Positions 3,877 through 53,651 of a DNA stretch of 64,000 bases are shown here, in pieces (the first letter of the stretch is position 1; each line of letters starts with the position of its first letter). The position numbers and the translations under genes are program-made. The notes under the pieces were generated by a model. It was not told the DNA's origin. It saw only the letters and a list, made by a program, of their open reading frames with translations, and ran no database searches. The stretch is taken from assembly GCA_002794785.1 (NCBI GenBank), contig NBBA01000008.1, positions 1,426,001 to 1,490,000 on the forward strand, read 5' to 3'. Source of the DNA: Coniferiporia sulphurascens. Taxonomy: Eukaryota > Basidiomycota > Agaricomycetes > Hymenochaetales > Hymenochaetaceae.

Positions 3877-5085
3877 CATCCTTCTTGTCCTCTTACCACC
3901 ACCATCTCTGGTTTTCACTGGGGGTCATCTCAGGGTTCATCGCAGCAACCCATGCTCTGGTCTGGTATTCTACTGGGTTGACATGAGAGAAGGTTCCCAA
4001 CTGCACACCTTTTATAAAGGAGCACTGCTTGCTGGTCACTGAGGCATTGTAGCGGTGTCGTCTGATGGCGCGAAAGGGGTTCACACCCGCCAGGGGGTTC
4101 GCAACCCATTGTTAATGTTGCAGTGGGGGGGGATGGCTCAGTGAGTACCAAGATCCTCTCTCATGTCTGCTGTGCTCTCTTGGGGCATGGTGCTCGGCTG
4201 GTCCGCATCTCGGCGGTGCAAGGGGCGCATGCCTGCCAGTCAGGGGGGGACATGACATTAACGTCCCCACACCTGCGTGGGGGGGGGGGGGGGGGGGTAA
4301 CCCTCTGCCCTTCAGTGGTCGGCTTCGGTTGGGAGACCTCGGGTTCAGGGAAACTCAGATCTGACCTTCAGGTCAGGACTTAAAATCCTGGGGCCACATT
4401 GTCCTGGCAAGACAAACCATAAAAACTGCCACCCCAAACCCTGAAAGGGTCTCTGATGACGGCACTAGTTGCTATAAGGAGATAGGGGCTTCATAACACA
4501 TGGCATTGCGGTAAGAACCAGCCGACATGAAAGTGACAGGCCACCATGGGCCTCTTGGGGGGATAATGCTGGGGCTCACCTAGCACTCACAGGAAGTCCC
4601 TGGTAGCTGGCCCTCTCCCATCAAAGTGGGAAGGATGCTGGTACCCCTCGAGAGGTGGTTAGTCTGAGCAGACTCCCTGGCGGCTGTAACAAGCACTGGG
4701 GTCCAAGCAAGGGCAACACGTCATCTCCGGTATGCCGCAGATCCAGAAGCGGGCCTTGTGCCTGAGTATTCCCCTTCGGGGCTCTGAAGTGTGTGCCAGG
4801 GAACAGGAAACTCCAGGGGGGCCTAGGAAACCCCTCCACTATGGAGTGAGCTGTAGCAGTGGGGGATAGTTCCCTCCACTGGCTCCAGAGCACTAAATCT
4901 GGCATGGGTGTGCATAGGAGTAAGTCCTATTGCGTGCTTAAGTTGATTCCCAGAAACGAGCAGCACTCTACAGTGGAAAGTGGGGTAAGGGGGGGAATGT
5001 GTAGGGTAGGGGGGGCACCAATGGGTGGGGTAGTGCCTATGGTGCCACAACCCCCACTCGGAATGCCTCCCTAGTGCAGCATGCC

Positions 5086-6550
5086 TGTTAGGAATTGATG
5101 AATAAGCTTGCTTACAAGCTTAGACAACGACACCAGCAACTACCAATACAGGAAGGGACTCCCACAGAGACTATCCAGCGATCATTCAACATGGGGACGG
5201 AACTAACTAGAAAACCAGGACTTCTGGGGAACATTAGGCCAATCATGATGCTCAAGCGACCGCTAAAGACTCTTGACACATCAAGACTCTGCCACCGATG
5301 CCGGACCGCATACAATCAATCATGGGAAGCATTTAACACAGTAATAACCGAATGCTTTTACATGGCAGGGTACACGAACTGCCAGGTAACTACAGATCAC
5401 ACTGTAGACCCTATAGGCGACGGCACGGAGGTCAGGGTAACACACACAATACAAATGTACATCTTCGATGTACAAGAGTTCTTGCACAATGTCCATGTCC
5501 AGATGATAGTGAACCCGCACATACATGACAAAGAATGTGACCTATGAGTGGTTTCAGGATCCTTCCCATACAGGACGTTGCAGGATAATACATTCCTAGC
5601 TAATGCTCACCGATTACGTGCAAAGGTAATCACCCTCTTTGAGAATCTATCAGCAAAGGGATCGACAACCGCCAATCAACAGATCGGCAACATTAATCTT
5701 TACATGATAACACTATGGTTATCAAATGGATCACCCCCAGCACCACCTCCAGGATACACGCGACGTATTGCTAGGATAAACCACATTAATGAACCACCAG
5801 ATAACGTGATCGATGACAGGACACCAACTGAAAGGTACCCACCTATGGACCTTTAGCCGATATCGCATTACATGATTAAGCCACACTCGGCAGGAACCGA
5901 AGTGCTTACTGAAGCCAGCCACAAACTCTAAAAGGACAATTGTCCAAGTTGACAGGATAACATGGAGGAACCAGTACAGGAGGCCAATGAGACAAGTCAA
6001 CGACTTACCAATCATCAAGCTGTTAGGCAGCATCTCAACAAGAAGCCACTGGCACATAAGACTACAGGGTAGCATGCAGAACAGTGGGGCGATGCGCACA
6101 GCCTAAGCGTCATGGTGAAGTCATTATGACACCTATGACTTCACTATGAGCTCAGTGGAGCCTAGTGGAGCGCATGATGTGCAGTGGAGTTCAGTGGAGC
6201 ACCAACGGCCAATCGTAGATAGTTATTTCTCATATGATCCTCTAATGAGGTCATTTGCACTGGTACACAGCTCCAAGTCAGTGAAGCTTATGACAACACT
6301 GTGAGACGTCATAGCTCCAACTGCAGAGCCTTGTGGAGCGTCCGCTTTCAAGCGGAGCTTCTTCTTCATGTATATAAGGAGGGCCTAGACCAGCCTAGAC
6401 CCCCAGTTTAATTCACCTTCTCAATTCTCTCAGACTTCTCCTGAGTGAAGTACCAACATCTACCGACTTATTCTTGACTCAATCACATGCCTCATCTCTA
6501 TCTCGACTACTTGTTCCATCGGCTAACCACGGTTACCCTTGGTCCTAACA
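5086..6550 (+). mobile_element. Solo LTR, family G, copy 1 (1465 bp)
   Basis: Begins TGTTAGGAATTG and ends TTGGTCCTAACA, with 5 bp duplications ATGCC / ACGCC (one mismatch). The uninterrupted R1 of chimera C4 (around 51995-52025) supplies the empty site. A second copy lies at 57051-58496. A TATA-like TGTATATAAGGAGGG sits about 180 bp from the right end (near 6368-6382), followed by a pyrimidine-rich stretch, as expected of an LTR promoter. A repeated CAGTGGAG motif occupies about 6150-6200. It carries a long ORF (see next entry). Confidence 0.85.
5098..5856 (+). CDS. ORF inside LTR-G, interrupted by one TGA
   Basis: The frame opens with an ATG 12 bp inside the LTR (MNKLAYKLRQ). It runs about 149 codons to a TGA at 5545-5547, then stays open for another 102 codons (VSGSFPYRT to PPMDL). 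The copy at 57063-57728 has the same frame with the TGA at the same place and a further TGA at its PPPGYT position, where this copy has CGA. I recognise no domain; CHRC and FYMAGY are the only cysteine or aromatic clusters. It may be a coding region overlapping the LTR or simply an open frame. The shared TGA shows the two copies descend from an already interrupted source. Confidence 0.4.
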
Positions 6551-6677
6551 ACGCCCTTCCCAATCCAGCGCATCGTAGAGGACAGTGTGTTGGGTGTAAG
6601 TCCTACTGGTCAGGCTTCTATGTCATGAGGAAGGTGCACACATAGTGGGGCCCTGCAAGGGTGCTCTTTAATTCTGG

Positions 6678-7067
6678 CAAACCCAGGACTCAGACCCAGC
6701 CCTTTTGGAGCTATCAGGTACACTCCCTCCCTTTCCTCTCGATTAGCATCTGCCTTTTGAATTCCCCTGAATATGTCTCAGCTGGCGCTCTTGCCCTCCC
6801 TTTCCATTTCTAAGCTTCTTACTTTAACCTGCCCTTATCTGCTTGGTTGGTTTGTAGTGATATGTATCCTGTCTTCTCTCGTTTCCCTTACTAAATAGGG
6901 GCTCTTCACACTCTGGCTCCCTTCGGGGAGCAGAGCCCCCACCCAGTTTTGTGCAATGCGCAATGATGGGCGCTTCTGTTGTTATGTAGTTAGGCCCCCC
7001 CCTTCGGGGGGGGGCAGCTTGTAATTATGTAATACTGCAGGAATAATAATAATTTTAAAAAAAAAAG
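6678..7067 (+). repeat. LINE-A1 terminal segment of chimera C1
   Basis: Holds the last dozen or so ORF2 codons (CAGCCCTTTTGGAGC..., the ALLELSG end) and the 3' UTR. The 3' hairpin is at 6994-7015: eight C, a TTCG-type loop and eight G. After it come the terminal block GTAATTATGTAATACTGCAGG and an AATAATAATAATTTT/A tail. The hairpin and following block are constant in A1 and A2 copies and are the likely recognition site for the LINE RT. Confidence 0.8.
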
Positions 7068-7697
7068 AGAGATGGAAGGCTGCTTTGAGTAGAGGGAAGG
7101 CTATGTCAGTCCATTCCTCCTTGTCAGCTGGTAGCAGCTGGCAGGTCTTTAGGACAGGAGGGGGGGGCCAAAATGGCAGTGACCATCGCAAAATGGCATG
7201 GTCAGACAGTGGTGACAGGTCAGAGGTAGCTGAATCTAGAATAGAATCAGGGTTGACCACAGGTGGGGCCCAGATCATGTCAATGGGACACCAACAATGA
7301 TTGCCGTCAGGTTGTGAGTCAGAGTCAAGAAGGTGGGCAGGCACCAGGCCATGCCCATGGAAAAAGATGTCAAGGGGTTGTGCCCCCAAGTCATCTTGCC
7401 GTGTGGCTGAGAGTTCGGACCACATGTGGTGGCGACAGTTGAAGTCACCTGCCACAAGTAGAGTGGTGGCTAGCACTGAGGGGAGTGAGAATAAAAAGGA
7501 CTCACCTGGGTACTGAGGGGAGGTGTTCTCTCGATCCAGAGGGTGCATGCTGTAGTAGTTGCACACCCGGAGGGTGAGTTGGGATCATACCTCCACCATC
7601 AGTACATCGGTGCCATGAGACGCGGCTCTGAGAATCGACCATGAAGTAGGGGGGAGGGCCCTGGATACATACGTGACTACCCGAGGGCGAACCTCTG
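7068..7697 (-). pseudogene. LINE endonuclease domain (A1), 5' part of the first LINE
   Basis: The continuation of the LINE at 1-3876 after chimera C1. APE-type endonuclease motifs are visible: LLVAGDFNCRHH, PIDMIWAPP and PLSDHAILRW (the SDH active-site motif). The main frame starts near MCNYYSMHPL. The N-terminal piece (7567-7697, WHRCTDG/VTYVS region) is in another frame. It ends abruptly against a plus-strand A2 fragment, so the ORF1 end of this LINE is missing. Confidence 0.8.
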
Positions 7698-7699
7698 GT

Positions 7700-8074
7700 G
7701 GCCTGGACCTGGCTCTCTTGGAGCTTTCAGGTGCACTTCCCCCCTTTTCCTCTGACTAGTGCCTGCCCTTCTGACTCCCCCCCGTATGTCCCGGCCAGCG
7801 CTCTCGCCCTCCCTTTCCTATTCTAAGCTACCCCTTTTGCCTGCCTTCGTCTGTTTGGATTTGCCATAGCAAAATGTATTCCTCCCTCCTTCTCTTTCTC
7901 CTTTACTAATAGGGGCCCTATACACCTTGGCACCCTTCAGGGAGCAGGGCCCCTGCCCATTTTTGTGCATTGTGCGATGACAGGCACCTCTGTTGTTATG
8001 TAGTTAGGGCCCCCCCTTTGGGGGGGCAGCTTGTAATTATGTAATACTGCAGGAATAATTTAAAAATAAAAAAA
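7700..8074 (+). mobile_element. LINE-A2 3' terminal fragment
   Basis: Starts within the LALLELSG codons (CTGGCTCTCTTGGAGC) and carries the A2 3' UTR, the C-run/G-run hairpin near 8010-8032 and an A-rich tail ending near 8074. It is severely 5'-truncated. The two flanks are different LINE pieces (A1 endonuclease on the left, LINE-B RT on the right), and I see no target-site duplication. The junction has probably been rearranged. Confidence 0.75.
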
Positions 8075-8078
8075 AACC

Positions 8079-8911
8079 CTACTGACCACTCCCAAACCTG
8101 ACCTTGGCACCCCACAAGGCTCGCCAGTGTCACCCATCCTCTCAACAATCTTTGCAGGCATTGTGATGACATGCTTTCAACAGCATGGCTCACAACTGCT
8201 AGCATATGTCGATGATCACCTCATCACATGTGTAGGCACCTTGGTGACAGCTAACTGCCGCTCCCTAGCATGCACGCCTACCAACAACTCGACCTCCTCT
8301 TCTGCCAAATCGATCTCAACATCGAACTGGCAAAGACAGAGGCCCTCCACTTTCACCCACCCAGGCGATGAACCAGCTACCACTGCTGGGACACTGCTGG
8401 GATCCAAATCGACACTAACACTGTGGTCCGACCCACCAACCCCCTGCAATGGCTAGGGATATGGTGGGATGCTGGCCTCACCTTCTGACCTCATGTGGAG
8501 CGCATGCACTCCAAAGGCCTCTCAACATTGGCAGCCCTTCGGATTCTTGGCAACACTGAGAGGGGCCTCTCTGCCATCCACCTCTGATGTCTCTACACTG
8601 CCTGCATTCACACCATCCTTGCTTGGGGCACACCAGTGTGGTATCATGGAAGACGACAAAAAACCCTAGTCAACTGACTACAGGCTGTGCAGAACACTGC
8701 TTGCCATTGGATATTGGGCATCTACAAGGGCACGTCTCCCCATTCCACAAATTTTCTTTGCTCCACTCCCCCTTTCTTCACTTATTTCAAATACTTAAAG
8801 ACCACTCATGCCTTGCATCTATGGCGCACCCCCCACCACATAGGGCAGAAAAAGTTTAATCCTAATGCTAACACTCCCTTTTCCCTTTCATTGCAGGTCT
8901 GCATCCCATGA
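8079..8911 (+). pseudogene. LINE-B reverse transcriptase C-terminal half, broken
   Basis: Starts at PKPDLGTPQGSPVSPIL in the first frame (TPQGS motif B) and continues in other frames with LLAYVDDHLITC (motif C). The thumb and connection follow (AVQNTACHWILGIYKG, 8687-8911). At least three frameshifts or stops break it. The N-terminal half of the RT is absent. Confidence 0.75.
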
Positions 8912-8929
8912 GTTCAATGGATCCCAGCG

Positions 8930-9633: not shown

Positions 9634-9639
9634 GACCAT

Positions 9640-10178: not shown

Positions 10179-10378
10179 CTGCTGTTTGGATCCCCCATTG
10201 GTTTCTTCTATGGCACTTGCAGCCACTCCTTTCCTCTTCTAAGGGACTCTCTCTTTCTGATCTCATCTTAACTTGGTTTGGTTCACTGTAGTCACAATAT
10301 GTATGCCTCCTTCTCCCCCTCTTTATTTACCCTAATAGGGTGCATAAGTACACTAGGCCTCCCTCAGGAGGCACACGC

Positions 10379-10907: not shown

Positions 10908-10970
10908 GCGCCCTGCCCAGTTTCACTCGATGAGTGATGACAGGCGCCTCAGTAGTTAGGTAGTTTACAG

Positions 10971-10989: not shown

Positions 10990-11047
10990 AGGTGTATTAT
11001 GTAGCTCAGTAGGAATAATAAATTTAAAAAAAAAAAAAAAAAAAAAC

Positions 11048-32065: not shown

Positions 32066-32403
32066 CTGGTCGTCTTGTGCCTGCCCCGATGTGTTCTGGG
32101 CTCAAGTGACTTCGAGGGTGGTCTGTGATCCTCGCTGCGGCCACTGGTTGAGGTCGCCTAGAGGGATTTCGCCCTGGAGGGCGTCATAGTTGGGGGGGGT
32201 GAGACATGCCAGTGGGGACAGCGAGCAGCTCCTGGGGGCGGTGGGCGATTGGCGATGACCAGGGTTGATCACTCCAGTTGCAGTAGAAATAGAAGTAGTG
32301 AGGCCTGTGGGTCGTAGGGGATGACCACTGAACTGATCCGCCATGGGGGAGTTTGAGCTGCCCATGCTAGGGAGATGGTGGTGGTAAGAGGTCAAGAAGG
32401 GAT
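32066..32403 (-). promoter_or_regulatory. LINE-B 5' leader and probable internal promoter
   Basis: 338 bp between the 5' end of the element and the ORF1 ATG. The terminal about 30 bp (CTTCTTGACCTCTTACCACC on the minus strand) nearly match the first bases of R1 at 3879, 34956 and 50820. A shared 5' terminus in a LINE and in a noncoding repeat suggests a promoter or transcript-start element. Confidence 0.5.
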
Positions 32404-32797
32404 GAGCATTCCGGCTTGCTGAAGTGGTGTGTTGCGGGCCGTAGCACTGTGTGAGAGTTGCATACAGTGGCCGAGAGGACTAAATCCTCTGTTGGTGTGC
32501 ATCAGGGTAATTCCACCTGTGTCACTTAAGTTGATTCCCAGAAGCGCAGTGGCGCTCTCCAGGACCTCTATGGTTGGGGAAGGAATGTGTAGGGTAGGGG
32601 GGTCATTCCATATGGGTGTAGTAGTGCCTACGGCGCCGCAACCTGTACCTGGGGTGGCCTCCTGGTGTGGCACGCCTTACCCTAGTGTGTCACATGTCCA
32701 TAAGTCGGAGAGGACAGCAGGAGCAGTTTTGCCTGCTGCATATCCTGAGGAAGGTGCACGTGTTGTTTGAGTCCTGCAAGGGCGCTCTTAATTCTGG
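32404..32797 (+). repeat. R1 (type b), 3' part within chimera C2
   Basis: Continuation of 24079-24679 after the LINE-B insertion. Contains TTAAGTTGATTCCCAGAAGC and GGAATGTGTAGGGTAGGGGG, shared with the other R1 copies, and ends GCGCTCTTAATTCTGG at the LINE junction. Confidence 0.8.
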
Positions 32798-33612
32798 ACA
32801 GCGACAGACACCGAAATCTTTTCTTTGGCAACTGCCCCAGGCTGGGCCGCAAGACACCTCCACCACCTGCTGCTGAATGTCCAGGAGATCTTCTTCCTCT
32901 CAGACTCTCTGATGGCACTAGGCCTATTCCGCACCTGGCCCTCCACTTTGGGGGCCCAGCTCCTCCCCCTTTGGAAGGCGGGGGTTGAGACCCTTCTCGA
33001 CTCGTTTCCAAACCTGACCATTCATTTCCGATGGTGCCCGGCCATGAGGACATCCCTGGGAACGAATGGGCCGACTCCGAGGCGAAGTTAGCAACCGAGC
33101 TTCCCCCCTCCACCCTTGCCCCCTCTATCTCCACTCTGAAGGAAGTCGCAACTCGCACACTCAGCGAGCACTGGTCCCTTCAGCTGGCCCGCCCCCTGGC
33201 CTCCACAGCTGACAAGTATTTGGCAGTGAATGGGCCCCCCACTCGATGACCGAGAAAGCTAATTACCATCTCAGTCAACCACCCCCGCTCAGAGCTCACT
33301 GCAGTGGTGCAGGTCCTCTGTCATGCCAGTACCTACAGGGGCTACTGGCTGAGCTTCGACTCAGCCTACTGGCACAGGCATGGCCTGATCTCCCATTGCA
33401 GGTGGCACAACCATCCACCCTGGCCAGCACAGTCAACCTCCCATGTCCTCGGCGGATGCGAAACATTCCAGCCATGGATATGATGTGTTTGGCCCAGAAG
33501 CGACCCCCTCCCTGTCCACCACACCGAATGGGCGGATGAAAACCACCTACTGGTACTAAGGTGCTGGCTACACCTCACAGGCCACCTCAACCGGATGTCC
33601 AACTGCACAGCC
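32798..33612 (+). pseudogene. LINE-B RNase H and C-terminal region in chimera C2
   Basis: Begins mid-domain (TDTEIF...), with APGWAARHLHHLL, FFLSDSLMALG, HEDIPGNEWADSEAK in two frames and the YRGYWLSFDSAYWHRHG block. The first RNase H motif (FTDGS) is absent because the LINE part starts after it, so it was never functional after insertion. It is broken at 33612 by LTR-F. Confidence 0.8.
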
Positions 33613-34175
33613 TGTTATAAATTTCCCTTATGTTTCCTCTTACTGTGCTGACTCATTTCCTCTTCATCATCACCAGTCAGCGCAACTCCCCCATTTCTCT
33701 TCCTTAACTCATTCCTATTTGCCTTACAACATAAGATGCCATGATGACGCCATATTGCACCATCATGATGTGCTTTGCTTACTGATACCTTCACCTGTAT
33801 TACCAAGGCATTCCTTGGGTTTCCATGACCTTCCATAGCCATGTAAACAACCTTATACATGACCCTACAGTAGCAAACACATAGAGTAGCATATAAGCAT
33901 GTAATGTGGATCGCACAAGCCCTAAGCTTGTGCTCTTTGTTCATACAAGCCCATTATATGCACCTCAGTGCCCTCTGTGTGCTCTACCTCATCATCTGGC
34001 ACTTCATTGTAACCCGACTCCTCTGAGACCCCATCACATCTCTTCTCGACAATCAGGAAGCCCCATTGTCGATCACCTTCGACTTATGACATCTAGGAAG
34101 CCCCATTGCCATATTACCCGCTCCGACGATCAGGAAGCCCTGATGTCGATCACTGTGTAACTGTTGAGCTTAACA
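33613..34175 (-). mobile_element. Solo LTR, family F, copy 4
   Basis: 563 bp, TGTTATAAATTTCC ... TTGAGCTTAACA, flanked by CAGCC / CAGCT (5 bp, one mismatch). The LINE-B reading (NCTAG / AGAIRLAFAAMDL) resumes directly after it. The small LTR ORF is open on the minus strand at 33615-33944. Confidence 0.88.
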
Positions 34176-34952: not shown

Positions 34953-35337
34953 CATCCTTCTTGTCCTCTTACCACCACCATCTCTGGTTTTTACTGGGGG
35001 TTGTCTGGGGGTACGTCACAGCTACCCGACCTTGTCTGGACTCTCTGGGACTGGGCATCGTACAAGAGAAGGTTCCAACTCACCCTGGTGCGCCGGGGAT
35101 GTTCGTCGGTTGCCGTAACACAGTGGGAAACAGGTGCAGAGCTTGCCGATTGGCTTGGCAACCTATCGAAAACTTTGCCTCTGGTTGAATGACTTGGTGA
35201 GGATGATTTCTTCTGGCATCTGTGCTGCTCTCTCGGGGTGGCGTGCTCGTTGGGCTCGCATTGTATGTGGGCTCGGCGGGGGGGGGGGGGACACGACGTT
35301 AACGTCCTCACAGGGGGGGGGAAACCCCCTGCCTACA

Positions 35338-36555
35338 CCTCCTACAGATTGCAGAGCACGTGCCCATGCTGAGGGCCGCATATGTTCGGTCTTAGTGGTC
35401 GACATACCAGGCTTATTCGACTCGGTACACCCACAACTCCTTCACCAGCAACTATTGGACCTCTGCTGCCCACCTGACATGGCGGACTGGTGTCTGTCCT
35501 TTATGACGGATCGGCAGGTAGCCATTGCCTTTGATGGCACCACCCTTCCAACTGCCCAGAAACCCAACCTCGGCACCCCCCAAGGGTCGCCAGTGTCCCC
35601 AATCCTCTCGACCATTTTCATGGGTGTGGTCCTCCAGAAATTCCACCAAACCGGTACCACCACCCTTGTGTACATCAATGACCACCTCCTTGTGTGCATC
35701 GGACCCAGTGTGGCATCCAACTGCCAGCAATTGTCCAACACCTACCACCAACTCAATGCCCACTTTGGTGCCATCGGTCTCAACATCGAAGCCACCAAAA
35801 CGGAGTGCCAACACTTCCACCCACCTCAACGCCACTCAGCTGCCTACACCGACTGGGACACAGCAGGGGTCTGGGTCGCCCCCACCATGCTAATTCGACC
35901 CTCTATCCCGCTTCGCTGGCTGGGAATATGGTGGGACCCCGCCCTCACTTTCAAGGCTCATGTAGAGCGCATGCGCTCCAAGGGCCTCTCCATGCTTGCC
36001 ACCCTCCGCATTCTCAGTAACACGGAACGCGGAATCTCGGCCCTCCTCCTCATTCGACTGTACGCCGCCTGTGTCTGCTCTGTTCTCACATGGGGCGCCC
36101 TGGTTTGGTACCATGGCTGGCGCCAAAAAACACTAGTGAGCTGCCTACAGGCTGTGCAAAACACGGCATGTAGATGGATTCTGGGCGTCTACAAAGGCAC
36201 CTCCCCCTTCTCCACAAATTTTCTTTGTTCCCTTCCCCCTCTTTCTTACTATTTCGAATATGCTAAGACTCTCCATTCTCTTCGCCTCTGGTGTACCCCG
36301 CACTCTGTCAGTAGAAAACAATATTATAAATCTGTAACTAACTGTCCCTTTTCCACTTCTCTGCAGGCCCAGGTCCCTCGGGTACAACCAGTCCCTGCAT
36401 ACACTCATCCCCCATGGACAGATCCTCTGGCATTTACGAATGGTCAAGTCTTGTTTGCCACTCCTATCACCCTGGTCAGTGAAGACACCCACAAGGAATT
36501 TGTCGGCACTGCAACGCTCCCTGAGCACCCTCCCCCACCTCCAGGTTTTCACTGA
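35338..36555 (+). pseudogene. LINE-A2 reverse transcriptase to connection
   Basis: One continuous frame of about 400 codons: VVDIPGLFDSVHPQLL (motif A), WCLSFMTDRQVAIAFDGTTLP, GTPQGSPVSPILSTIF (B), VYINDHLLVC (C), WGALVWYHGW, AVQNTACRWILGVYKG and the connection up to FTNGQVLFATPITLV. Motif C is YIND at 35671-35682 in place of YVDD/YIDD. The first Asp is lost by GAT to AAT at a CpG. A frameshift near 36500 separates it from RNase H. Confidence 0.85.
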
Positions 36556-37641
36556 TGGCTCCCACATCAGTTCTAAGTCTGGGTCAGCAGTCTGCGCCAT
36601 GGAAGGCCTTACCCGCCTCAAGTCTCACCAGCTAGCCTCCCCCACCTGTGCCACAGCTACAGACACAGAAATCTTCTCTCTCACCTCTGCACCAAGCTGG
36701 GCTGCACACCACCTCTGGGAGCTCCTGCCTGTCGCATCTGACATCTTCTTTTTGTCGGATTTGCTGACAGCACTCCACCTGATCCATACATGGGCGCCAG
36801 TCCCAGGCGCACATCTCCTCCACCAATGGAAGGCAGGGGTCCAGACTCTCTTGGACTCATACCCGGATCTTTCCGTTCACTTTGTCTGGTGTCTGGGTCA
36901 CTCCAACATCCCAGAGAATGAATGGGCTGACCGCAAGGCGAAGTTCACAACGAATCTCCCCCCATCTCCCCTCACACCCTCCACCTCTGCACTGAAAGAG
37001 GCCGCTGTCAACACCCTCATGGAGCGATGGACCCTCTCTCTCACCCGCCCCCTTGCCTCGACAGCCGACAAATACTTAGCTGTCAGTGGCATCCCTTCTT
37101 GCCATCCCCAAAAGCTCATGACGCAGTCGGTCAACCACCCCCGCCAGGAGCTCTTCACAGTCGCCCAGGTTCTATGCCATGCCGGTCCCTATGGGGGTTA
37201 CTGGCTGAGCTTTGACTCAGCCTACCGACACAGGCATGGCCTGATCTCGCACTGCCGATGGCATAACCACCCCCCCTGGCCAGCCCAGTCGACCGCCCAC
37301 ATCTTGGGCGGTTATTGCACTTTCTGACCATGGATCCGCAAGGTCTGGCCCCCCCGTCACCCACTTCCGACCCACCATGCCAAGTGGGCCGATGAAAACC
37401 GCCTCCAGGTTCTGCGCTGTTGGCTCAAGCTGACAGGGCACCTCAACTGCTTTTCCGACCGCACTGCTGCCGCCATCCGCCTGGCCTTCGCCGTGATGGA
37501 GCTGGAGGGGCACCTGACCAACGAAGATATGGACCTGGACCTCCTCTGGGAATACATGAGTCATATGCTTGGACCCCACACCCAGGACCCGGACCCAGCT
37601 CTCTTGGAGCTTTCAGGTGTGCTTCCTCCCTTTTCCTCTGA
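36440..37641 (+). pseudogene. LINE-A2 RNase H and C-terminal region
   Basis: A 295-codon frame with VFTDGSHISSKSGSAVCAM, ATDTEIFSLTSAPSW, FFLSDLLTALH and HSNIPENEWADRKAK, then YGGYWLSFDSAYRHRHG, ISHCRWHNHPPWPAQST. A stop follows GGYCTF at 37325-37327. The A2 ending (MELEGHLTNEDMDLDLLWEYM) is in a second frame to 37641. Confidence 0.82.
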
Positions 37642-37973
37642 TCTATGACTGCCTTTCGGACTCTCCCGCGCATGTCCCGGCTGGCACTCTCGCCCTCCCT
37701 TTCCAATTCTAAGCTACCCCCTTTTGCCTGATGTCGTCCGTTTGGCTTGGCTGTAGTGACACGTATTCCTCCCTCTTTCTGTGTACTTACTAATAGGGGC
37801 CCTTCCCACTCTGGCTCCCTCTGGGGAGCAGGGCCCCGCCCAGTTTCATGCATTGCGCAATGATGGGCGCCTCCATTGTTATGTAGTTATGGCCCCCCCT
37901 CCGGGGGGCAGCTTGTAATTATGTAATACTGCAGGAGTAATAAAAAAATAAAAAATAAAAAAACCCCCTGCCT

Positions 37974-38859
37974 TGCAGCGGGCGACTTCGGTCGGGAGAT
38001 CTCAGTTCAGGGCAACTCGGATCACGCCTTCAGGTGCTGAGCACTGCCCTCCTGGGTACCTCAGGGCCCGTGTTGTCCCTGGCATGACAAATCAAAAACT
38101 GCCCCCCCAAATTCCCGAAAGGGTCTCTGATGATGGTACTCCATGCTAAAAGGAGATAGGGGGCTCATAACACATGGCGTGGCAGTAAGAACCACCTGAC
38201 GCTGAAAGGCGACAGGGCACCATGGGCCTCTTGGGTGGGTTGGACCCCCTTGAGGTGGTTAGTATCCCCTACTCCCTGGGAGGCTTTGCCACCGGGGTCG
38301 GGTATGCGAGACGGAGATCCTGGTATGATCATGGATCCAGAAGCGGGGCTGGGGGCTGACTGGGCACTTGTCCCATGACCTTGGTTCCTGAGTATTCCGG
38401 CTGTAATGGCTGTTTCTGAAGCATGTGCCAGGGCACGGGAAAGGGCCTGCATGGAGTGTGCGTCGGCATCCCGGTGTGCTGAAGTGTAGTGCCTCGGGCC
38501 ATAGCACTGTGGGAGAGTTCCCCTCAGTGGCTCCAGAGGACTAAATCCTCCATCAGTTCATGTGGGGGTAATTCCCACTACGGGCTTAAGTTGATTCCCA
38601 GAAGCACAGTGGTACTCTACAGGACCTCTATGGTCAGGGAGGGAATGTGTAGGGTAGGGGGGTCATTCCATATGGGTGGAGTAGTGCCTACAGCACCGCG
38701 ACCTTCACCTGGGTGGCCTCCTGGTGCGGCACACCCTACCCTAGTGCTCCAATATAGCGCCCATATGTTGTAGAGGACAGCAGGAGCAGTTTCAGTTGCT
38801 GCATATCCCGAGGAGGCACACATGTTGTTTGAGTCCTGCAAGGGTGCTCTTAATTCTGG
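37974..38859 (+). repeat. R1 (type b), 3' part within chimera C3
   Basis: Resumes at TGCAGCGGGCGACTTCGG after the A2 insertion. Ends GGGTGCTCTTAATTCTGG. Its closest relative by eye is the R1 in C2 (24180-24679 and 32404-32797), which defines type b. Confidence 0.8.
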
Positions 38860-40612
38860 TCTAAGTCTGAAGTCCCCTGGTGGACCCCAACATGCAAGTC
38901 GCTCCTACAGGCAATCTCGACAGCCACCACCCCCCTTCAGCAATCAGCAGCCCGCTGTGCCTTCAAACACGGCATCCGAGTGGCCAAGCGGCAGTTCTAT
39001 GCTGACCAAGCCGGACAAGCTGACGCCTCCAACATCTGGAGCTGGGCCAAGCACAGCCTCGGCAACCGACCTACCCCAATCCCCTCACTCAAAAAGCATG
39101 ACGGCACCTTCACCCAATTGGACAATGAGAAAGGTGAGCTTTTCCGCACTACTTTCTTTCTGCCCCCTCCACCCTACCAAGCGGCCGACACCCCGCTGCC
39201 TCCCCCCAACCCACTGCCCACCCATACTCCTCTTGGAGCTTACAGGGGCACTGTCCAACACCTCCAACTTGTCGGCTCCGGGCCTCTCAGGGATCAGCTA
39301 CCGCCCTCTCAAATGGGTGGTAGATGCCTACCCCGATGAGATCCTCACCCTTTTCAATTACTGTCTGTGCATGGGGCACCACCCCAAGTGCTAGCGGGCA
39401 GCAAAAGTGGTGATGCTCCAGAAGCTGAACAAGAAGGACCCCTTCTCTCTGAGATCATACTGGCCCATCACCCTCGAGGAGACCCTAGGGAAACTCCTCA
39501 AAAAGATTATAGCTAACCAGCTCCAATTCCTTGCTAACACGAGGGATTGGCTGCCACCCAACCAATACGGGGGGCGCCAAGGACATTCTGTCTATGACGC
39601 CACCCAGCACCTCCTACAGATTGCAGAGCACGCCCATGCTGAGGGCCGGGTATGTTTGGTCCTTGCAGTCGACATACAGGGTTTCTTCAACTCGGTTCAT
39701 CTGCAACTCTTCCACCAGCAACTCCTGGACCTCCAGTGCCCACCCAATATGGTGGACTGGTGTCTGTCCTTCATGACAGACTGACAGGTCGCCATTGCCT
39801 TCGATGGCACCACCCTCCCAACTGCCCAGAAACCTGACCTCGGCACCCCTCAAAGGTCGCCAGTTTCCCCAATCCTCTCGACTATATTTGTGGGCATGGT
39901 CCTCCAGAAATTTCACCAAACCGGCACCACTGCTCTCGCATATGTCGATGACCACCTCCTTGTGTGCATCGGACCCAGCGTGGCATCCAACTGCCAACAA
40001 CTGTCTAATGCCTACCACCAACTCAATGCTCACTTTGGCACAATCAGTCTCAACATCGAAGCCACCAAAATGGAGTGCCTCCACTTTCACCCACCCCAAT
40101 GACGATCAGCTGCCTACACGGACTGGGACACCACTGGGGTTTGGGTTGCCCCCCCCCCCCCCACACTCATCCGACCCTCCATCCCGCTCCACTGGCTAGG
40201 GATATGGTGGGACCCTGCCCTCACCTTTAAGGCCCACATGGAATGTATGCGCTCCAAGGGCCTCTCCACACTAGCCACCCTCTGCATTCTTGGCAACACT
40301 GAACATGGAATCTTGGCCCTTCTCCTCCATTGTCTATACACCGCCTGTGTCTGCTCTGTCCTTATGTGGGGTGCGCCAGTGTGGTATCATGGCCAGTGCC
40401 AAAAAACATTAGTAAGCCGCCTGCAGGCTGTGCAAAACACGGCATGCAGATGGATTCTTGATGTCCACAAAGGCGCCTCCCCATTTTCCACAAATTTTCT
40501 TTGCTCCCTTCCCCCCTTTCTTATTATTTTGAATATGCTAAGACTCTCCATTCTCTGTGCCTCTGGCACACCCTGCACTCTGTCGGTAGAAAATGATATT
40601 ATAAAAACGTAA
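38860..40612 (+). pseudogene. LINE-A2 linker and reverse transcriptase in chimera C3
   Basis: LSKSEVPWWTPT, then frames 38980-39394 (KRQFYADQAGQADASNIWSW), 39407-39784 (LEETLGKLLKKII, NQYGGRQGHSVYD, VDIQGFFNSVH), 39890-40102 (LAYVDDHLLVC) and 40238-40612 (WGAPVWYHGQ, AVQNTACRWILDVHKG). Several stops and shifts. Motif A has FFN for FFD, losing a catalytic Asp. Confidence 0.8.
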
Positions 40613-40639
40613 CTAACCGTCCCTTTTCCACTTCTCTGC

Positions 40640-41528
40640 AGGTCCAGGTCCCTCAGGTTCAACTGGTCCCTGCATACACTCATCCCCCATGGACGGATCC
40701 TCTGGCATTTATGACTGGAAGAGTCTTGTTTGCCACTCCTATCACTCCGGTCAGCAAGGACACCCGCAACGAATTTGTGGCTGCCATACGCTCCCTGAGC
40801 ACCCTCCCCCACCTCCAGGTTTTCACTGATGGCTTGCGCATGGGTTTAAAGTCTGGATCAGCCATCTGCGCCATGAGGGGCCTTACTCGCCTCAAGTCTC
40901 GCCGGCTGGCCTCCCCCACCCACGCAACAGCCATGGATGCGGAGATTTTCTCACTCACCTCTGCACCAAGCTGGGCTGTACACCACCTCCAGGATCACCT
41001 GCCTGTTGCATCTGACATCTTCTTTCTGTCAGATTCACTGATGGCACTCCACCTGATCTGCACATGGGCACCAGCCCCAGGCGCCCACCTCCTCCACCAA
41101 TGGAAGGCAGGGGTCCAGACTCTATTGGACTCATACCTGGATCTCTCCATCCATTTTGTTTGGTGCCCAGGTCACTCTGACATCCCCAGGAATGAATGGG
41201 CAGACCACGAGGCAAAGTTCGCAATGGACCTACCCCCGTCCTCCCTCACACCCTCCACCTCTGCACTGAAAGAGGCTGCCATCAACACACTTATGGAACA
41301 TTGGTCCCTCTCACTTGCCCGCACACTCGCTTCGACAGCCGACAAATACCTAGCTGTCAACAGTATCCCCTCTCGCCATCCCCGAAAGCTTATCATGCAG
41401 TCGGTCGACCACCTCTGCCGGAAGCTCTCCACAGTCGCCCAGGTCCTATGTCGTGCCGGTCCCTACGGGGGCTACTGGCTGAGCTTTGACTCAGCCTACC
41501 GGCACAGGCACAGCCTGATCTCACACTT
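40640..41528 (+). pseudogene. LINE-A2 RNase H in chimera C3
   Basis: The frame at 40711-41528: VFTDGLRMGLKSGSAICAM (FTDGL for FTDGS), AMDAEIFSLTSAPSW, FFLSDSLMALH, HSDIPRNEWADHEAK, YGGYWLSFDSAYRHRHSLISH. It is cut by the tail of the next LINE. Confidence 0.82.
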
Positions 41529-47071: not shown

Positions 47072-47076
47072 GCAGG

Positions 47077-47636: not shown

Positions 47637-47650
47637 CCACCCCTGCCAGG

Positions 47651-49435
47651 TCAGCATCTATAAAGGTGCCTCCCCATTTTCCACAAATTTCCTTTGTTCC
47701 CTTCCCCCTCTCTCCTATTATTTTGAATATGCAAAGACCCTTCACTCTCTGCACCTCTGGCGCACCCCGCACTCCGTCAGTAGAAAACGTTACTATAAAA
47801 CCATAGCTAACCGCCCCTTCTCCACTTCTCTGCAGGTCCGGGTCCCCTGGGTTCAACCGGTTCCTGCATACACTCATCCCCCATGGATGGATCCTCAGGC
47901 ATTTACGAACAGCCGAGTATTGTTTGCCTCTCCTATCACTCCAGTTAGCAAAGACACCTGTGAACAATTTGTGGAAGCTGCATGCTCCCTGAGCACCCTC
48001 CCCCACCTCCAGGTCTTCACCAATGGCTCCCACATGGGGACAAGGTCTGGTTCCACTGTCTGCACCATGATAGGCCTCACCCACCTAAAATCGCGCCGAC
48101 TCGCCTCCCCCACATGTGCCACAGCAATGGACGCAGAGATTTTCTCCCTCACATCCACGCCCATGTGGGCTGCACACCACCTCCAGGAGCTACTGCCTGT
48201 TGCATCTGACATCTTCTTTTTGTCAGATTCACTGATGGCACTCCACCTTATCCACACATGGGCACCAGTCCCAGGCACCCATCTCCTTCATCAATGGAAG
48301 GCTGGGGTCCAGACTCTCTTGGACTTGTACCCAGATCTTTCCGTACATTTCATCTGGTGCCCGGGTCACTCCGACATTCCAGGGAATGAATGGGCCAACC
48401 ACGAGGCCAAGTTTGCGACAAATCTCCCCTCGTCCTCCCTCGCCCCCTCTACCTCCACTCTGAAGGAAGCCGCCATCAAAACCCTAATGGAATGGTGGTC
48501 TCTTTCTCTCGCCCGCCCTCTGGCCTCGACAGCCAACAAGTACTTGGCTGTCAATGGTGTCCCCTCCTGCAGACCACGGAAGCTACTCAACCAGTCAGTC
48601 GACCATCCCTGCCATGAGCTCTCGGCAGTCGCCCAGGTCCTCTGTCGTGCTGGTCCCTATGGGGGCTACTGGCTGAGCTTTCAACTCAGTCTACCAGCAC
48701 AGACACGGCCTGATCTCGCATTGCAGGTGGCACAACCACCCCCCCTGGCCAGCCCAATCCACCACCCATGTCCTGGGTGGGTGTCATACTTTCCAACCAT
48801 GGATCCGAAAGGTCTGGCCCCCCTGTGACCCACTTCCGACCCACCACACCAAGTGGGCTGATGAAAACCATCTCCAGGTTCTGTGCCACTGGCTGAAACT
48901 GACTGGGCACTTGAACCACCTATCCAACCGCACCTCCGCCACCATCTGCTTGGCTTTCGCTGCGATGGACCTAGAGGGGCACCCCACCAATGAAGATATG
49001 GACTTGGACCTCCTTAGGGGATACATGAGTCATATGCTTGGACCCCGACCCCAGGACCCAGACCCGGCTCTCTTGGAGCTTTCAGGTGCACTTCCCCCCT
49101 TTTCCTCTACTCAGTGACCGCCTTTCGGACTCCCCCACGTACGTCTTGGCCAGTGCTCTCACCCTCCCTTTCCAATTCTAAGCTACCCCTATTACCTGCC
49201 CTCACCTGCTTGGTTCTGTCATAGCGATATGTACTCCTCTCTCCTTCTCCTCTGCTTTCTTTTCTAATAGGGGCCCTTCCCACCTTGGCACCCTTCGGGG
49301 AGCAGGGTCCCCGCCCAGTTTCATGTGTTGTGTGATGATGGGCGCCTCCATTGTTATGTAGTTAGGGCCCCCCCTTCGGGTGGGCAGCTTGTAATTATGT
49401 AATACTGCGGGAATAATAATAATAATAATAAAAAA
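47651..49435 (+). mobile_element. LINE-A2, 5'-truncated insertion in another A2
   Basis: 1.8 kb from the connection (VYKGASPFSTNF codons) to the tail AATAATAATAATAATA. A 14 bp duplication CCACCCCTGCC(A/G)GG is present at 47637-47650 and 49436-49449. The host, an A2 C-terminal region (HPCRELSAV codons), continues from 49436. Confidence 0.88.
47860..49117 (+). pseudogene. LINE-A2 RNase H and ORF2 end
   Basis: A 313-codon frame 47887-48828: VFTNGSHMGTRSGSTVCTM (Asp to Asn in FTDGS), AMDAEIFSLTSTPMW, FFLSDSLMALH, HSDIPGNEWANHEAK (WAD to WAN). A frameshift follows YGGYWLSF. The A2 ending DLEGHPTNEDMDLDLLRGYM is at 48911-49117. Two acidic residues are lost. Confidence 0.82.
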
Positions 49436-50254
49436 CCACCCCTGCCGGGAGCTTTCTGCAGTCATGCAGGTCCTATGCCATGCTGGTCCCTATGGGGGCT
49501 ACTGGCTGAGCTTCGACTCAGCCTACCGGCACAGGCACGGCCTGATTTCGCACTGCCGGTGGCACAACCACCCCCCCTGGCCGGCCCAGTCAACTGCCCA
49601 TGTATTAGGTGGGTGTCACACATTCCATCCCTGGATTTGCAAGGTCTGGCCCCCCCATGACCCACTTCCGACCCACCATACCGAGTGGGCTGACAAAAAC
49701 CATCTTCAGGTTCTGCGCTGCTGGCTTAAGCTGATGGGGCACATGAACCGCCTCTCCAACCGCACCTCTGCTTTGCCATGATGGAGCTGGAGGGACACCC
49801 AACCAACAAAGATATGGACTTGGACCTCCTCCAGGACTACATGAGTCATATGCTTGGACCCCATTCCCAGGACCCAGACCTGGCTCTCTTGGAGCTCTCA
49901 GGTGCACTTCCTCCCTTTTCCACTGGTTGATGACTGCCTTTCAGACTCTCCCATGTATGTCCTGGCCAGTGCTCTTGCCCTCCCTTTCCAATTCTAAGCT
50001 ACCCCCTTTTTGCCTGATGTTGTCTGTTTGGCTTGGCCGTAGTGATATGTACTCCTCCCTCTTTCTCTTCGCTTACTAATAGGAGCCCTTCACACCTTGG
50101 CACCCTTTGGGGAGCAGGGCCCCCACCCAGTTTTGTGCATTGTGCGATGACGGGCGCCTCTGTTGTTATGTAGTTAGGGCCCCCCTTCGGGGGGGGCAGC
50201 TTGTAATTATGTAATACTGCAGAATAAAAAATTAAAAATTAAAAAAATTAAAAA
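49436..50254 (+). mobile_element. LINE-A2 3' segment, host of the previous insertion
   Basis: Runs from HPCRELSAVMQVLCHAGPYGGYW through SHCRWHNHPPWPAQST and, after a deletion near 49770, MELEGHPTNKDMDLDLLQDYM to the A-type hairpin (about 50180-50200) and tail. Its upstream part is lost at the LTR-F junction (47636). Confidence 0.8.
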
Positions 50255-50441
50255 TCAGGGGTGGTGGCCCACATGTGGAAAAGGTGAAGAGCAGTCAGCG
50301 AATTGGACAAAAAGAAGACGTCCAATGCGACATGCAGTTGCGCCGGGAGGCGGTGTGCAACCCAGCCTGGGGCCGTGGCAAGGGAGAACTCCTCGGTGTC
50401 CATGGCGGTGGTGCAGGTGGGGGACTCCAGTTGGTGAGACT
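50255..50441 (-). pseudogene. LINE RNase H fragment (A1-like)
   Basis: SHQLESPTCTTAMDTEEFSLATAPGW, AQLHVALDVFFLSNSLTALHLF on the minus strand. 187 bp, bounded by an A2 tail on the left and an unrelated coding-like stretch on the right. Confidence 0.7.
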
Positions 50442-50817
50442 GGAGGCCCCGGTCATCAGAGTCTCGGACACCGAGTTCACTCATGCGTTTGAGCACGTCA
50501 GCCGCCCCCCCTCCGCAGGGTCCAACATCCTGGAAGAAGTCCAAGGACATGAAATGGATGATATCCTTGAGAACCCACACACCCCATTGCCACTGCTCAC
50601 CAATAAATGGTTGTCTGAAAACCTTTCACCACACACCCCCCAGCCCTGCCCTCAAGCCCAGTATGAGCAGCACACGTCGAGTTTCATGTACTCCCTCTCC
50701 CGTGCACTGGAGGACTTTGACCGGAAGACCCACCACACCAGTGCCACAGAGACCGATCGGGCAGCTGGCCAGTTTGTGTGCGACCTCCTCTGGAACGTCC
50801 AACAGACCATCACCAGC
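50442..50817 (+). pseudogene. Unrecognised coding-like stretch, possibly LINE ORF1 N-terminus
   Basis: An open plus-strand frame of about 125 codons: RVSDTEFTHAFEHVSR, MDDILENPHTPLPLLTNKWL, YSLSRALEDFDRKTHHTSATE, QFVCDLLWNVQQTITS. Acidic and amphipathic, without a known motif, and without another copy in the window. It ends where R1 of chimera C4 begins. An A-type ORF1 N-terminus is possible, since none of the A copies retains one. This is a guess from context. Confidence 0.4.
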
Positions 50818-52135
50818 ATCCTTCTTGTCCTCTTACCACCACCATCTCACCTTCACCCTGGGGTCATCTCTGGTCAGTTGCAGCAACCTGTGTCTTGCTC
50901 TGGTATACTACTGGGGCAACATGAGAGAAGGCTCTCTGACTGCCCACCCTTATAGGGAGGGCAGCTGGCTGGTTGCCGAGGCACTGTAATGGCGTCATTG
51001 GATGGCGGGAAATGGGCGCTTGCGTTTGCTGGCTGGCATGAGGACCTGTTGTTAATGTCCTCTTGGGGGGGGAGACTTGGTGAGGATGATCCTCTCTCAT
51101 GTCTGCGCTGACCTTCTCGAGGATGGCATGCTTGCTGGTCCGCCTTTGGGCGGCACAAGGGGCGTACACCTGCCAGTTAGGGGGGGGACACGACGTTAAC
51201 GTCCCCACACCCACATGGGGGGGGGTAACCCTCTGCCCTTCAGCGGTCGGCTTCGGTCAGGAGACCTCGGGTTCGGGGAAACTTGGATCTGACCTTCGGG
51301 TCAGGACTTAAAATCCTGGGGCTGTGTTGTCCCTGGCATGACAAACCATAAAAACTGCTGCCCCAAACCCCAAAAGGGTCTCTGATGATGTCACTAGTTG
51401 ATATAAGGAGATAGGGGCTTCTTAACACATGGCGTTGTGGTAAGAACCAGCCGACACGAAAGCGACAGGCCACCATGGGCCTCTTGGGGGAATAACGCTG
51501 GGGCTCACCTAGCATTCGCGGGAAGTCCCTGGTAGCTGGCCTTCTCCCATAGAAGTGGGAAGGACACTGGTACCCCTCAAGAGGTGGTTAGTCTGAGCAG
51601 ACTCCCAGCGGCTGTAACAAGCACCGGGGTCCAAGCGAGGGCGACACGTCAACTCTGGTACATTATGGATCCAGAAGCAGGCCTTGTGCCTGAGTATTCA
51701 CCTTTGGGGCTCTGAAGCGTGTGCTGGGGAACAGGAAACTTGCGGGGGCCTAGGAAACCCCCCCATTATGGAGCAAGCTGTAGCGGTGGGGGATAGTTCC
51801 CTCCACTGGCTCCAGAGCACTAAATCTGGCATGGGTGCATGTAGGAGTAAGTCCTATTGCATGCTTAAGTTGATTCCCAGAAACTAGCGGCACTCTACAG
51901 TGGAAAGCGGGGTAAGGAGGGGAATGTGTAGGGTAGGGGGGGCACCCAATGGGTGGGGTGGTGCCTACAGTGCCGCAACCCCCACCCAGAATGTCTCCCT
52001 GGCGTGGCACGCCCTTCCCAATCCAGCACGCCATAGAGGACAGCGTGTCGGGTATAAGTCCTACCAGTCAGGCATCTATGTCATGAGGAAGGTGCACACA
52101 TAGTGGGGTCCCGCAAGGGCGCCCTTTAATTCTGG
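50818..52135 (+). repeat. R1 (type a), reference copy without insertions
   Basis: The best copy for defining R1. Contains the palindrome GACGTTAACGTC (about 51191-51202), a G run at about 51218-51225 and small unshared ORFs only. Around 51995-52025 it shows the empty site for LTR-G (GGCACGCCCTTCCCAATCC). Confidence 0.8.
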
Positions 52136-52335
52136 GCATCCCCCATGGATGGACCCCCTGGCTTTTACCAATGGCCATGTCCACTTCACCACCACCCCAA
52201 CCCCGGTTAGCATCAACACCCACAAACAGTTTGTGAGGGCCACACACAAGCTTAGCTCCACCCCCCATGTCCAAGTCTTCATGGACAGCTCCCACATTAT
52301 TAAAAAAAAACAAAAGAAAATAGAAAGTCAAAGAT

Positions 52336-52385
<50 letters not shown>

Positions 52386-53651
52386 GTCTCATCTAGAAAT
52401 ACATCAGTTACGCTGATCCACCCCCTCCACCCTGCCCTCATCGTCTACCACAACGGTGTAGATGCACATCCAGCCATCTGTGCCATGCTCGGCCCCACCC
52501 ACCTCCAGTCTTGCCACTGGAGTCCCCCACCTGCGCCACCGCCATGGACACTGAGGAGTTCTCCCTCGCCACGGCCCCAGGCTGGGTTGTGTGCCACCTC
52601 CTGGCGCAACTGCATGTCACATCAGACATCTTCTTTTTGTCCAATTCGCTGACCGCTCTTCACCTTTTCCGCACGTGGGCCACCGCCCCTGGTGCCCACC
52701 TCCTTCACATCTGGAAAGCGGGTGTGGAGACTCTGCTGGACTTGTACCCCCAGCTCACCGTTCATTTCATATGGTGCCCCAGCCACTCGGACATCCCTGG
52801 CAATGAATGGGCTGACACGGAAGCGAAACTAGCGACTGAGCTCCCTCCATCTGATCTAAAGCCCTCCACCTCCATGCTAAAAGAAGTCGCCGTCTGCACC
52901 CTCATGGACCAGTGGACGCTCTCACTCACACACCCATTTGCCTCAACCACCAACAAATACTTGGCGGTACATGGCCTCCCTTCTCAGCAACCTCGAAAGC
53001 TACTCATGCATTTGGTCGACCACCCATGCAGCGAGCTCTCCACAGTTGCTCAGGTCCTCTGTCATGCCGGTCCCTACGGGGATACTGGTTGAGTTTTGAC
53101 TCAGCCTATTGGTGCAGGCATGGCCTGATTTCGCATTGCCGGTGGCACACCCACCCCCCCTGGCCTGCACAGTTGACCACCCACATTCTAGGCGGCTGCA
53201 GCACTTTCCATCCATGGATACGATGTGTATGGCCACCTCGGGACCTGCTCCCCATCCACCATTCAGAGTGGGCTGACGAACACCACCTCCTAGTTTTGTG
53301 CCATTGGCTTAAGCTGACAGGGCACCTAAACTGCCTCTCTGACTGCACTGCAGGCGCCATCAGGCTATCTTTTGCTGGGATGGACTTAGACAGCCACCCT
53401 ACCAACAAGGACATGGACTTGGACCTCCTATGGGACTACATGTGTCGTATGCTCGGACCACGAACCCAGGACTCAGACCCAGCCCTTTTGGAGCTATCAG
53501 GTATGCTCCCTCCCTTTCCTTCTGATTAGTGCCCGTCTTTTGAATTCCTTCAGATATGTCTCGGCCAGCGCTCTCACCCCCCCTTTCTCAATTCTAAGCT
53601 TCTTACTTTGCCTGCCTTTGCCCGCTTGGTTAGTTTGTAGCAATATGTATT
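52136..53651 (+). pseudogene. LINE-A1 RNase H, C-terminal region and partial 3' UTR in chimera C4
   Basis: MDPLAFTNGHVHFTTT, VFMDSSHI (FTDGS degraded), insertion, then AICAMLGPTHL, AMDTEEFSLATAPGW, FFLSNSLTALH, HSDIPGNEWADTEAK (52511-53092). After a frameshift: YWLSFDSAYWCRHG, DSHPTNKDMDLDLLWDYMC and LELSGMLPPFPSD (to 53529). Confidence 0.8.
52298..52470. repeat. Composite insertion with long poly(A) and an LTR-K-like segment
   Basis: Interrupts RNase H after DSSHI. It consists of A-rich sequence, an uninterrupted run of about 46 A (about 52337-52382) and then GAAATACATCAGTTACGCTG ... CTACCACAAC (52396-52454), which recurs at 62729-62799. About 18 bp of LINE sequence is missing at the site. 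Its nature is uncertain: a processed transcript end or an LTR fragment. Confidence 0.5.

Follow-up and report, generated by a model that had tools for sequence, protein, structure and literature searches.

Chimeric retroelements named MINE, in which a WEIRD sequence is fused to the long interspersed nuclear element (LINE) MGL, are known from Magnaporthe. According to the published account, a template jump of the reverse transcriptase (RT) has been proposed as their origin, and some of the chimeras are transcribed (PMC2104539). By the published description of its anatomy, MINE is the closest relative of the chimeras described here from the basidiomycete Coniferiporia sulphurascens, in which a sequence of ~1.2-1.33 kb, termed R1, is followed directly by a LINE in the same orientation. 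The stretch of DNA analysed (the window) comprises 64,000 nucleotides of contig NBBA01000008.1 (positions 1,426,001 to 1,490,000; G000:C8:1426001-1490000), within a genome of 39.35 Mb in 31 contigs. On balance, we favour the view that R1 and its diverged lineages are a family of non-coding, LINE-dependent RNA elements, which enter mainly as a second template by an RT jump.

Self-BLAST and Pfam comparisons show that the window is packed with nested elements, both LINEs with RT and RNase H and long terminal repeat (LTR) elements. The sequence TTAATTCTGG has exactly four matches in it, all on the + strand, ending at 6677, 32797, 38859 and 52135 (0.08 matches expected in the shuffled window). These matches recover all four R1::LINE chimeras listed by a first-pass annotation of the window, and the base following each R1 end is the first base of a sense LINE. 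The joints lie ~376 nt (6677, LINE subfamily A1), ~1.3 kb (32797, B), ~3.35 kb (38859, A2) and ~1.55 kb (52135, A1) from the LINE 3' end. RT and RNase H matches place the first near the end of the second open reading frame (ORF2), the second within RNase H, the third 5' of RT and the fourth between RT and RNase H, in agreement with the earlier assignment to the A1 ORF2 end, the B RNase H, the A2 endonuclease-RT linker and the A1 RT-RNase H junction. The annotation had also given all four chimeras one R1 3' end. The end is indeed shared, but the R1 is not: 32797 and 38859 belong to a second lineage, R1'. As two full-length R1' copies outside the window are 62-66% identical to 13 R1 copies, the window ends belong to one R1 family rather than to one R1. 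The features of the four chimeras are the following.

3863-3876, + strand: left target-site duplication (TSD) of chimera 1, AGAGATGGAAGGCT, with an exact 14/14 copy at 7068-7081
3877-5085, + strand: 5' portion of the R1 of chimera 1, 83% identical to R1 query 1-1196, starting with the LINE-like leader CATCCTTCTTG (0 mismatches)
5086-6550, strand not assigned: later insert splitting the R1 of chimera 1, matching part of the LTR retrotransposon at 57050-58504 (94% identity by self-BLAST)
6551-6677, + strand: 3' portion of the R1 of chimera 1, 89% identical to R1 query 1192-1318, end TTTAATTCTGG
6678-7067, + strand: LINE A1 3' part of chimera 1 with an A/T-rich tail (BLAST to LINE references; 3' end and tail read)
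7068-7081, + strand: right TSD of chimera 1, copy of 3863-3876
32372-32404, - strand: LINE 5' leader, almost the same as the R1 leader (1 mismatch and 1 inserted base, by sequence comparison)
32438-32797, + strand: 3' portion of the R1' of chimera 2, end CTTAATTCTGG (sequence match, self-BLAST); the adjoining 5' part is not visible
32798-33611, + strand: LINE B part of chimera 2 (BLAST), followed by an LTR-like repeat at ~33612-34175 and by LINE B again to ~34696
34953-35333, + strand: 5' portion of the R1' of chimera 3 with the conserved leader (0 mismatches)
35335-37961, + strand: 5'-truncated LINE A2 nested in the R1' of chimera 3, with its own 13-bp TSD AAACCCCCTGCCT
37962-38859, + strand: 3' portion of the R1' of chimera 3, end TTAATTCTGG (exact match, self-BLAST)
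38860-41527, + strand: LINE A2 part of chimera 3, starting 5' of RT (self-BLAST, LINE references)
50817-52135, + strand: full-length R1 of chimera 4, 1319 nt, end TTTAATTCTGG (R1 search and alignment)
52136-53651, + strand: LINE A1 part of chimera 4, starting between the RT and RNase H regions and ending at an LTR retrotransposon at 53652

The exact 14-bp TSD (3863-3876 and 7068-7081) bears out the earlier placement of the start of chimera 1 at 3877. A TSD search on chimeras 3 and 4 recognised none, and chimera 2 has no visible 5' end. With regard to chimera 4, the LTR retrotransposon that truncates it (53652-61440) has LTRs at 53652-54198 and ~60880-61440, an RT match above the Pfam cut-off and gag matches just under it. 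As the two flanks of this element are unlike one duplicated target, recombination may have removed the LINE 3' end of the chimera. An A-rich insert with a long A run is located inside its LINE part, at ~52306-52382.

R1 ends were sought in the whole genome by the last 28-29 bases of R1, a search that is blind to the following sequence. The R1 end pattern occurs at 58 places and the R1' pattern at 66, with 0 for the reversed-pattern control in both cases. A shorter end pattern occurs at 85 places (control, 1), of which 19 are new; these constitute a third set and are mostly diverged (e.g. TTAATGTTGG, TTAATCGTGG and TTAATCTTGG). The 143 flanks read comprise 58 of R1, that of window end 6677, 65 of R1' and 19 of the third set. 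The initial R1 search, which scored 40 of 293 candidates, gives a lower bound. A sense-strand LINE was identified by BLAST to LINE references within the first 150-160 nt in 139 of the 143 flanks (59/59 for R1, 62/65 for R1' and 18/19 for the third set), so that, as in MINE, the 3' part is a same-orientation, 5'-truncated LINE with a variable truncation point. Three of the other flanks are also LINE: the L082 joint falls shortly after the start of the first LINE ORF and that of L102, an R1' joint, 6 nt from the LINE 5' end, before the LINE leader, both beyond the references used, and L138 has ~20 nt of its joint in common with sister copies. L096 is the sole flank without LINE identification. 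On the 160 bases examined, L102 is possibly a LINE headed by R1' whose own 5' end is almost complete.

For 141 of the 143 joints, there is an unjoined LINE relative whose match starts at most 6 nt from the joint. The joints form 94 clusters, 63 of them single, or 86 groups by a simpler rule; because the clustering can split one LINE site among diverged copies, the distinct LINE sites are fewer than 94. They range from the LINE 5' leader to less than 200 nt from the LINE 3' end and involve subfamilies A1, A2 and B, the median distance to the LINE 3' end being 602 nt for R1 and 933 nt for R1'. Homologous positions in different LINE subfamilies are used by different R1 lineages. The first-pass annotation had anticipated one fixed R1 end followed by many LINE positions, and the tabulated bases after the 143 ends show this pattern, with a constant end and variable LINE positions in 86-94 groups. 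The opposite outcome that it had named, one constant continuation after R1, is absent from the 143 flanks, and, L096 excepted, no solo R1 was seen among them.

The LINE 3' end was located in 10 of the 13 loci with a full-length R1. In six of these 10, a TSD encloses both R1 and the LINE; those of L020, L022 and L025 were also found by script, and those of L013, L015 and L016 were recognised by eye, with transitions. Exact enclosing TSDs are present in window copy 1 (14/14) and in L009 (15/15). Direct repeats of 10-20 bp around the whole chimera are a MINE-type trait. TSDs between R1 and the LINE had been named as evidence of independent insertions; the TSDs found lie outside the R1 and LINE pair. 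L026 retains no more than the 3'-terminal ~65 nt of R1 and has an exact 15-bp TSD, which indicates that the RT stopped early within R1 and that R1 was copied after the LINE. At the other extremity, a C precedes ATCC in all 13 full-length R1 copies, and it lies outside the TSD where the other TSD copy is readable.

Comparison of the joints with unjoined LINE relatives reveals the LINE sequence left uncopied. In the first set (n=61), C is present at -3 in 51 joints, C/T at -2 in 58 and G/A at -1 in 51, and C is the first LINE base in 47. The R1' set, which has two window ends in common with the first set, exhibits C at -3 in 46/64 (T in 16), C/T at -2 in 61/64, G/A at -1 in 50/64 and C as first base in 48/65. 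In the third set, C is found at -3 in 17/18, a pyrimidine at -2 in 18/18 and G/A at -1 in 11/18. Over 86 representatives, the frequencies are 0.78 for C at -3, 0.90 for Y at -2, 0.73 for G/A at -1 and 0.61 for C at +1, and CYR reaches 0.51 at the joint, whereas no other offset between -30 and +30 exceeds 0.19. The LINE-side motif is thus approximately C-Y-G/A^C, which differs from the MINE motif GCC*A/U. The terminal G of R1 overlaps a LINE G in about half of the joints. Untemplated bases were not recognised at the joints, where the first base is the majority base of the relatives in 52/61 and seven of the nine disagreements are transitions. An untemplated origin of the first LINE base C was rejected, as this base matches the unjoined relatives in 42/47. 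A pairing of R1 UGG with LINE CYR is visible, but we do not claim it, as G exceeds A at -1. For comparison, plain 5'-truncated LINEs with TSDs were collected (17 rows minus five chimeras, one duplicate and three non-LINE starts recognised by eye at window 45561, window minus 48686 and L010); the motif is present in one or two of the remaining eight.

Both ends of R1 are conserved. The first ~29 bases are nearly invariant across lineages, and 25/29 are identical to the leader of full-length LINEs (L010, L016, L017, L018, L023 and L025; chance 2e-9), in which the short leader directly precedes the first start codon. The R1 leader is also nearly identical to a second LINE leader, that of the minus-strand LINE at window 32404. 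These likenesses indicate that the R1 5' leader is the LINE's own, and it is presumably promoter-like. R1 as a whole was rejected as the 5' untranslated region of the LINE, because the LINE leader runs straight into the start codon and there is no constant R1-LINE joint. With up to 2 mismatches allowed, R1-type leaders occur 252 times in the genome and LINE-type leaders 288 times; for A-type LINE 3' ends, the count is 928 at the mismatch limit applied. An exact scan of viral contigs for the R1 leader found nothing. As in MINE, the 5' part is full-length, both of its ends being common to the 13 R1 and two R1' copies (one R1' with a changed leader). At its 3' end, R1 is predicted to fold into a hairpin, with CCC-GCAA-GGG as its core and some local variation, after which comes a short tail, ...UUAAU(NN)UGG. 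This hairpin is predicted in all 15 R1 and R1' copies and in two of three third-lineage copies. One outer pair of the hairpin is G-C in R1 and A-U in R1', and other copies show G-U intermediates. Nearly all R1-family ends are UGG; TAG occurs in 2/66 R1' matches.

The body of R1 appears to be non-coding, the longest sense ORF being 59-111 amino acids in 12/13 copies and 209 in one. Rfam gave nothing at gathering score (19/20 long loci in the last run), and a weak match to Ysr224 (23.5 bits vs a gathering score of 70) was treated as chance. ARAGORN found no tRNA, there is no tail of its own between R1 and the LINE, and the R1 middle showed no LINE homology in the comparisons made. A telomerase RNA, suggested by TAACCCT in one R1, was rejected by eye, as this motif is not conserved in R1'. 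The lineages are 62-76% identical, with conserved ends, and the 13 R1 copies are about equally distant from each other. At non-CpG letters, differences from the majority amount to 0/377 for the 5'-most 31 nt and 1/351 for the 3'-most 31 nt, as against 415/13162 (3.2%) for the middle. This contrast is suggestive only, as 25/1228 overlapping interior windows are as invariant as the R1 5' end. Most of the middle variation probably comes from different source RNAs, because copies should decay evenly after insertion, and the 97 shared and 107 singleton non-CpG variants agree with this. In copies L011-L028, 25% of the CpG-site letters in the middle are changed, compared with 3.2% of the other letters. 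C>T and G>A predominate, the pattern that CpG methylation or a process similar to repeat-induced point mutation would leave. As L009, L016 and L034 have one joint and one R1 deletion in common but different 5' flanks, they indicate that a finished chimera was recopied as a unit, in at least this one case, at three sites. Two third-lineage groups, one with one joint in six copies and another with one joint in four, may point the same way. The many joints speak for de novo joining.

Based on these observations, we propose that the LINE RT copies LINE RNA by target-primed reverse transcription, would quit it preferentially just before a C-Y-G/A triplet, and would resume on a separate R1 RNA, copying it from its 3' end up to its leader. 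The R1::LINE cDNA would be inserted with one TSD. Some chimeras, carrying the R1 leader and the LINE 3' end, could be retrotransposed as units and serve as R1 sources. The constant R1 end, the many LINE positions, the same orientation, the enclosing TSDs, the shared leader, the joint motif and the several lineages all support this sequence of events. They also argue strongly for a discrete, non-polyadenylated R1 RNA of ~1.2-1.33 kb with a defined 3' end. We more tentatively suggest that R1 could be an obligate retroelement, dependent on template jumping or joining: with a LINE leader and a dedicated 3' acceptor end, and without an RT start signal, it would acquire a fresh LINE 3' end each time, the chimeras supplying new R1 RNA.

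Several observations weigh against an RT jump or reduce its support. A TSD was not recognised after the LINE end in four of the 10 full-length R1 loci (L011, L014, L019 and L028), and a search for exact TSDs of at least 9 bp gave a match in only two of 13 (L025 and L028), that of L028 being away from the LINE end. Several groups have a joint in common, which leaves fewer independent events. The third set does not show the preference for C at +1 (T 7, A 7, C 3 and G 2; n=19), and the hairpin is not the predicted fold in L156, one of the three third-lineage copies. The eight plain truncations do not differ significantly from the joints (motif P 0.27, on approximate counts; first base C P 0.07), so the C-Y-G/A motif may not be specific to R1 joints. 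The R2 RT requires untemplated additions to jump in vitro, according to the published account (PMC8857657). Moreover, the DNA would look the same if the RNAs were ligated before being reverse-transcribed, and cleavage and ligation account at least as well for a joint that is sequence-specific and has no recognised untemplated bases.

In such a ligation pathway, an endonuclease would cut LINE RNA at C-Y-G^C, the 3' fragment would be ligated to the R1 3' end and the joined RNA would be retrotransposed. The base preference on both sides of the joint and the failure to recognise untemplated bases there favour this explanation, which we regard as a credible but lesser possibility. The joint motif is similar to the Ire1 sites of XBP1 (CCG^CAG and CUG^CAG), and a fungal tRNA ligase could join such RNA ends; Ire1-like cutting is a lead only, as G, a feature of Ire1 sites at +3, is not enriched there. 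Chimeras in human LINE-1 assays arise by pre-ligation, as published (PMC8857657). Nevertheless, nearly all R1 copies terminate in ...UGG, which is unlike the LINE-side motif, and a joint 6 nt from the LINE 5' end, as in L102, would be surprising if the LINE fragments were random. In view of this joint at the LINE 5' end, and of the same design with a different published motif in MINE, we favour an RT jump over ligation as the joining step, by a modest margin.

Other explanations account for fewer of the data. R1 could be a single host housekeeping non-coding RNA gene, as suggested for WEIRD, that is captured passively and often and has no element-like life. The absence of a long ORF, the structured 3' end and the equidistant R1 copies are consistent with such a gene, whereas the leader common to R1 and the LINE, lineages only 62-76% identical with conserved ends, and shared variants nearly as frequent as singletons, which imply several sources, make it unlikely. 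Apart from L096, no copy outside a LINE fusion occurs in the 143 flanks, although a source gene could exist elsewhere. Trans- or cis-splicing of R1 to LINE RNA would explain a fixed donor end with variable acceptors, and trans-splicing has been proposed for some L1 chimeras in the published account (PMC13174262); however, the LINE bases immediately before the joint read C-Y-G/A instead of AG, and we consider splicing very improbable. Separate insertions or recombination, of R1 into LINEs or of LINEs into R1, might be expected in such a dense nest of insertions. The TSDs enclosing both parts largely refute them, and sense orientation, an R1 end kept in nearly every copy and a LINE 5'-truncated exactly at the joint leave them hardly any probability.

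With regard to the LINE partner, its ORFs match Pfam RVT_1 and RNase_H, and a search of solved structures confirmed the RT. The LINE is presumably Tad1-like. Among the first 27 matches listed, the window LINE RT is 61-80% identical to Coniferiporia weirii sequences. A KOG1/raptor protein of the host shows 96% identity to Coniferiporia weirii and 87% to Phellopilus nigrolimitatus, in keeping with a basidiomycete near Coniferiporia. The LINE part is often adjoined within a few hundred bases by a LINE of opposite orientation (L010, L023, L024, L027, L030 and others), which could reflect either nested insertion or an orientation preference. The 124 R1 and R1' ends form one block per large contig, with spans of 2.5 of 31.5 Mb in the 16 contigs above 0.9 Mb; smaller contigs show a wider spread. 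The window sits inside such a block, and the blocks look centromere-like.

The joining of RNAs by a LINE is often deemed an accident, yet it can give rise to a family that is both large and diversified, R1-type leaders being comparable in number to LINE-type leaders (252 vs 288). The shared leader and the conserved acceptor end suggest selection for being joined, and the WEIRD RNA may therefore deserve the same reading. The ~90 separable joints also provide a large natural data set on template jump vs RNA ligation. Short interspersed nuclear elements (SINEs) are non-coding LINE parasites in which reverse transcription is initiated through mimicry of the LINE 3' end. R1 differs in having no tail of its own and in borrowing a varying length of LINE. 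If R1 is indeed an obligate retroelement of the kind suggested above, LINEs would have yet another type of parasite, in addition to SINEs, processed pseudogenes and internally deleted elements.

The first-pass annotation had regarded these chimeras as new. The general phenomenon has been published, for Magnaporthe (PMC2104539) and for mammalian LINE-1 (PMC13174262), but a literature search by titles and abstract openings, with subscription papers mostly outside it, found no basidiomycete chimera of this type among the papers listed. As far as this search reaches, the novelty lies in the basidiomycete host and the scale, in a partner RNA that bears the LINE leader and has several diverged lineages, and in the joint motif. 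As described in PMC13174262, U6::L1 and other mammalian LINE-1 chimeras likewise combine a full-length small RNA with a full-length or truncated LINE and have TSDs, but their partners are host RNAs with their own genes, whereas R1 is an element-like family with a LINE leader. The short internally deleted elements (SIDEs) of Drosophila, including R2/R1 hybrid SIDEs, are also non-autonomous, with a LINE 5' end and a LINE 3' end; according to their description, each family has one fixed structure (PMC3414825), whereas R1 keeps forming new joints. MINE is more similar. In its published description (PMC2104539), it comprises a full-length non-coding RNA of ~1.1 kb as 5' part and a same-orientation, 5'-truncated LINE as 3' part, with many LINE positions and hot spots, TSDs, a base preference at the joint and no solo copy found. 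In contrast to MINE, R1::LINE has a basidiomycete host, three LINE subfamilies and several R1 lineages, and its 143 joints in 86-94 groups compare with 33 bipartite chimeras and one tripartite chimera reported for MINE. R1 carries a LINE 5' leader, of which the accessible text of PMC2104539 makes no mention for WEIRD, its joint motif is C-Y-G/A^C instead of GCC*A/U, and one R1 chimera is present at three sites.

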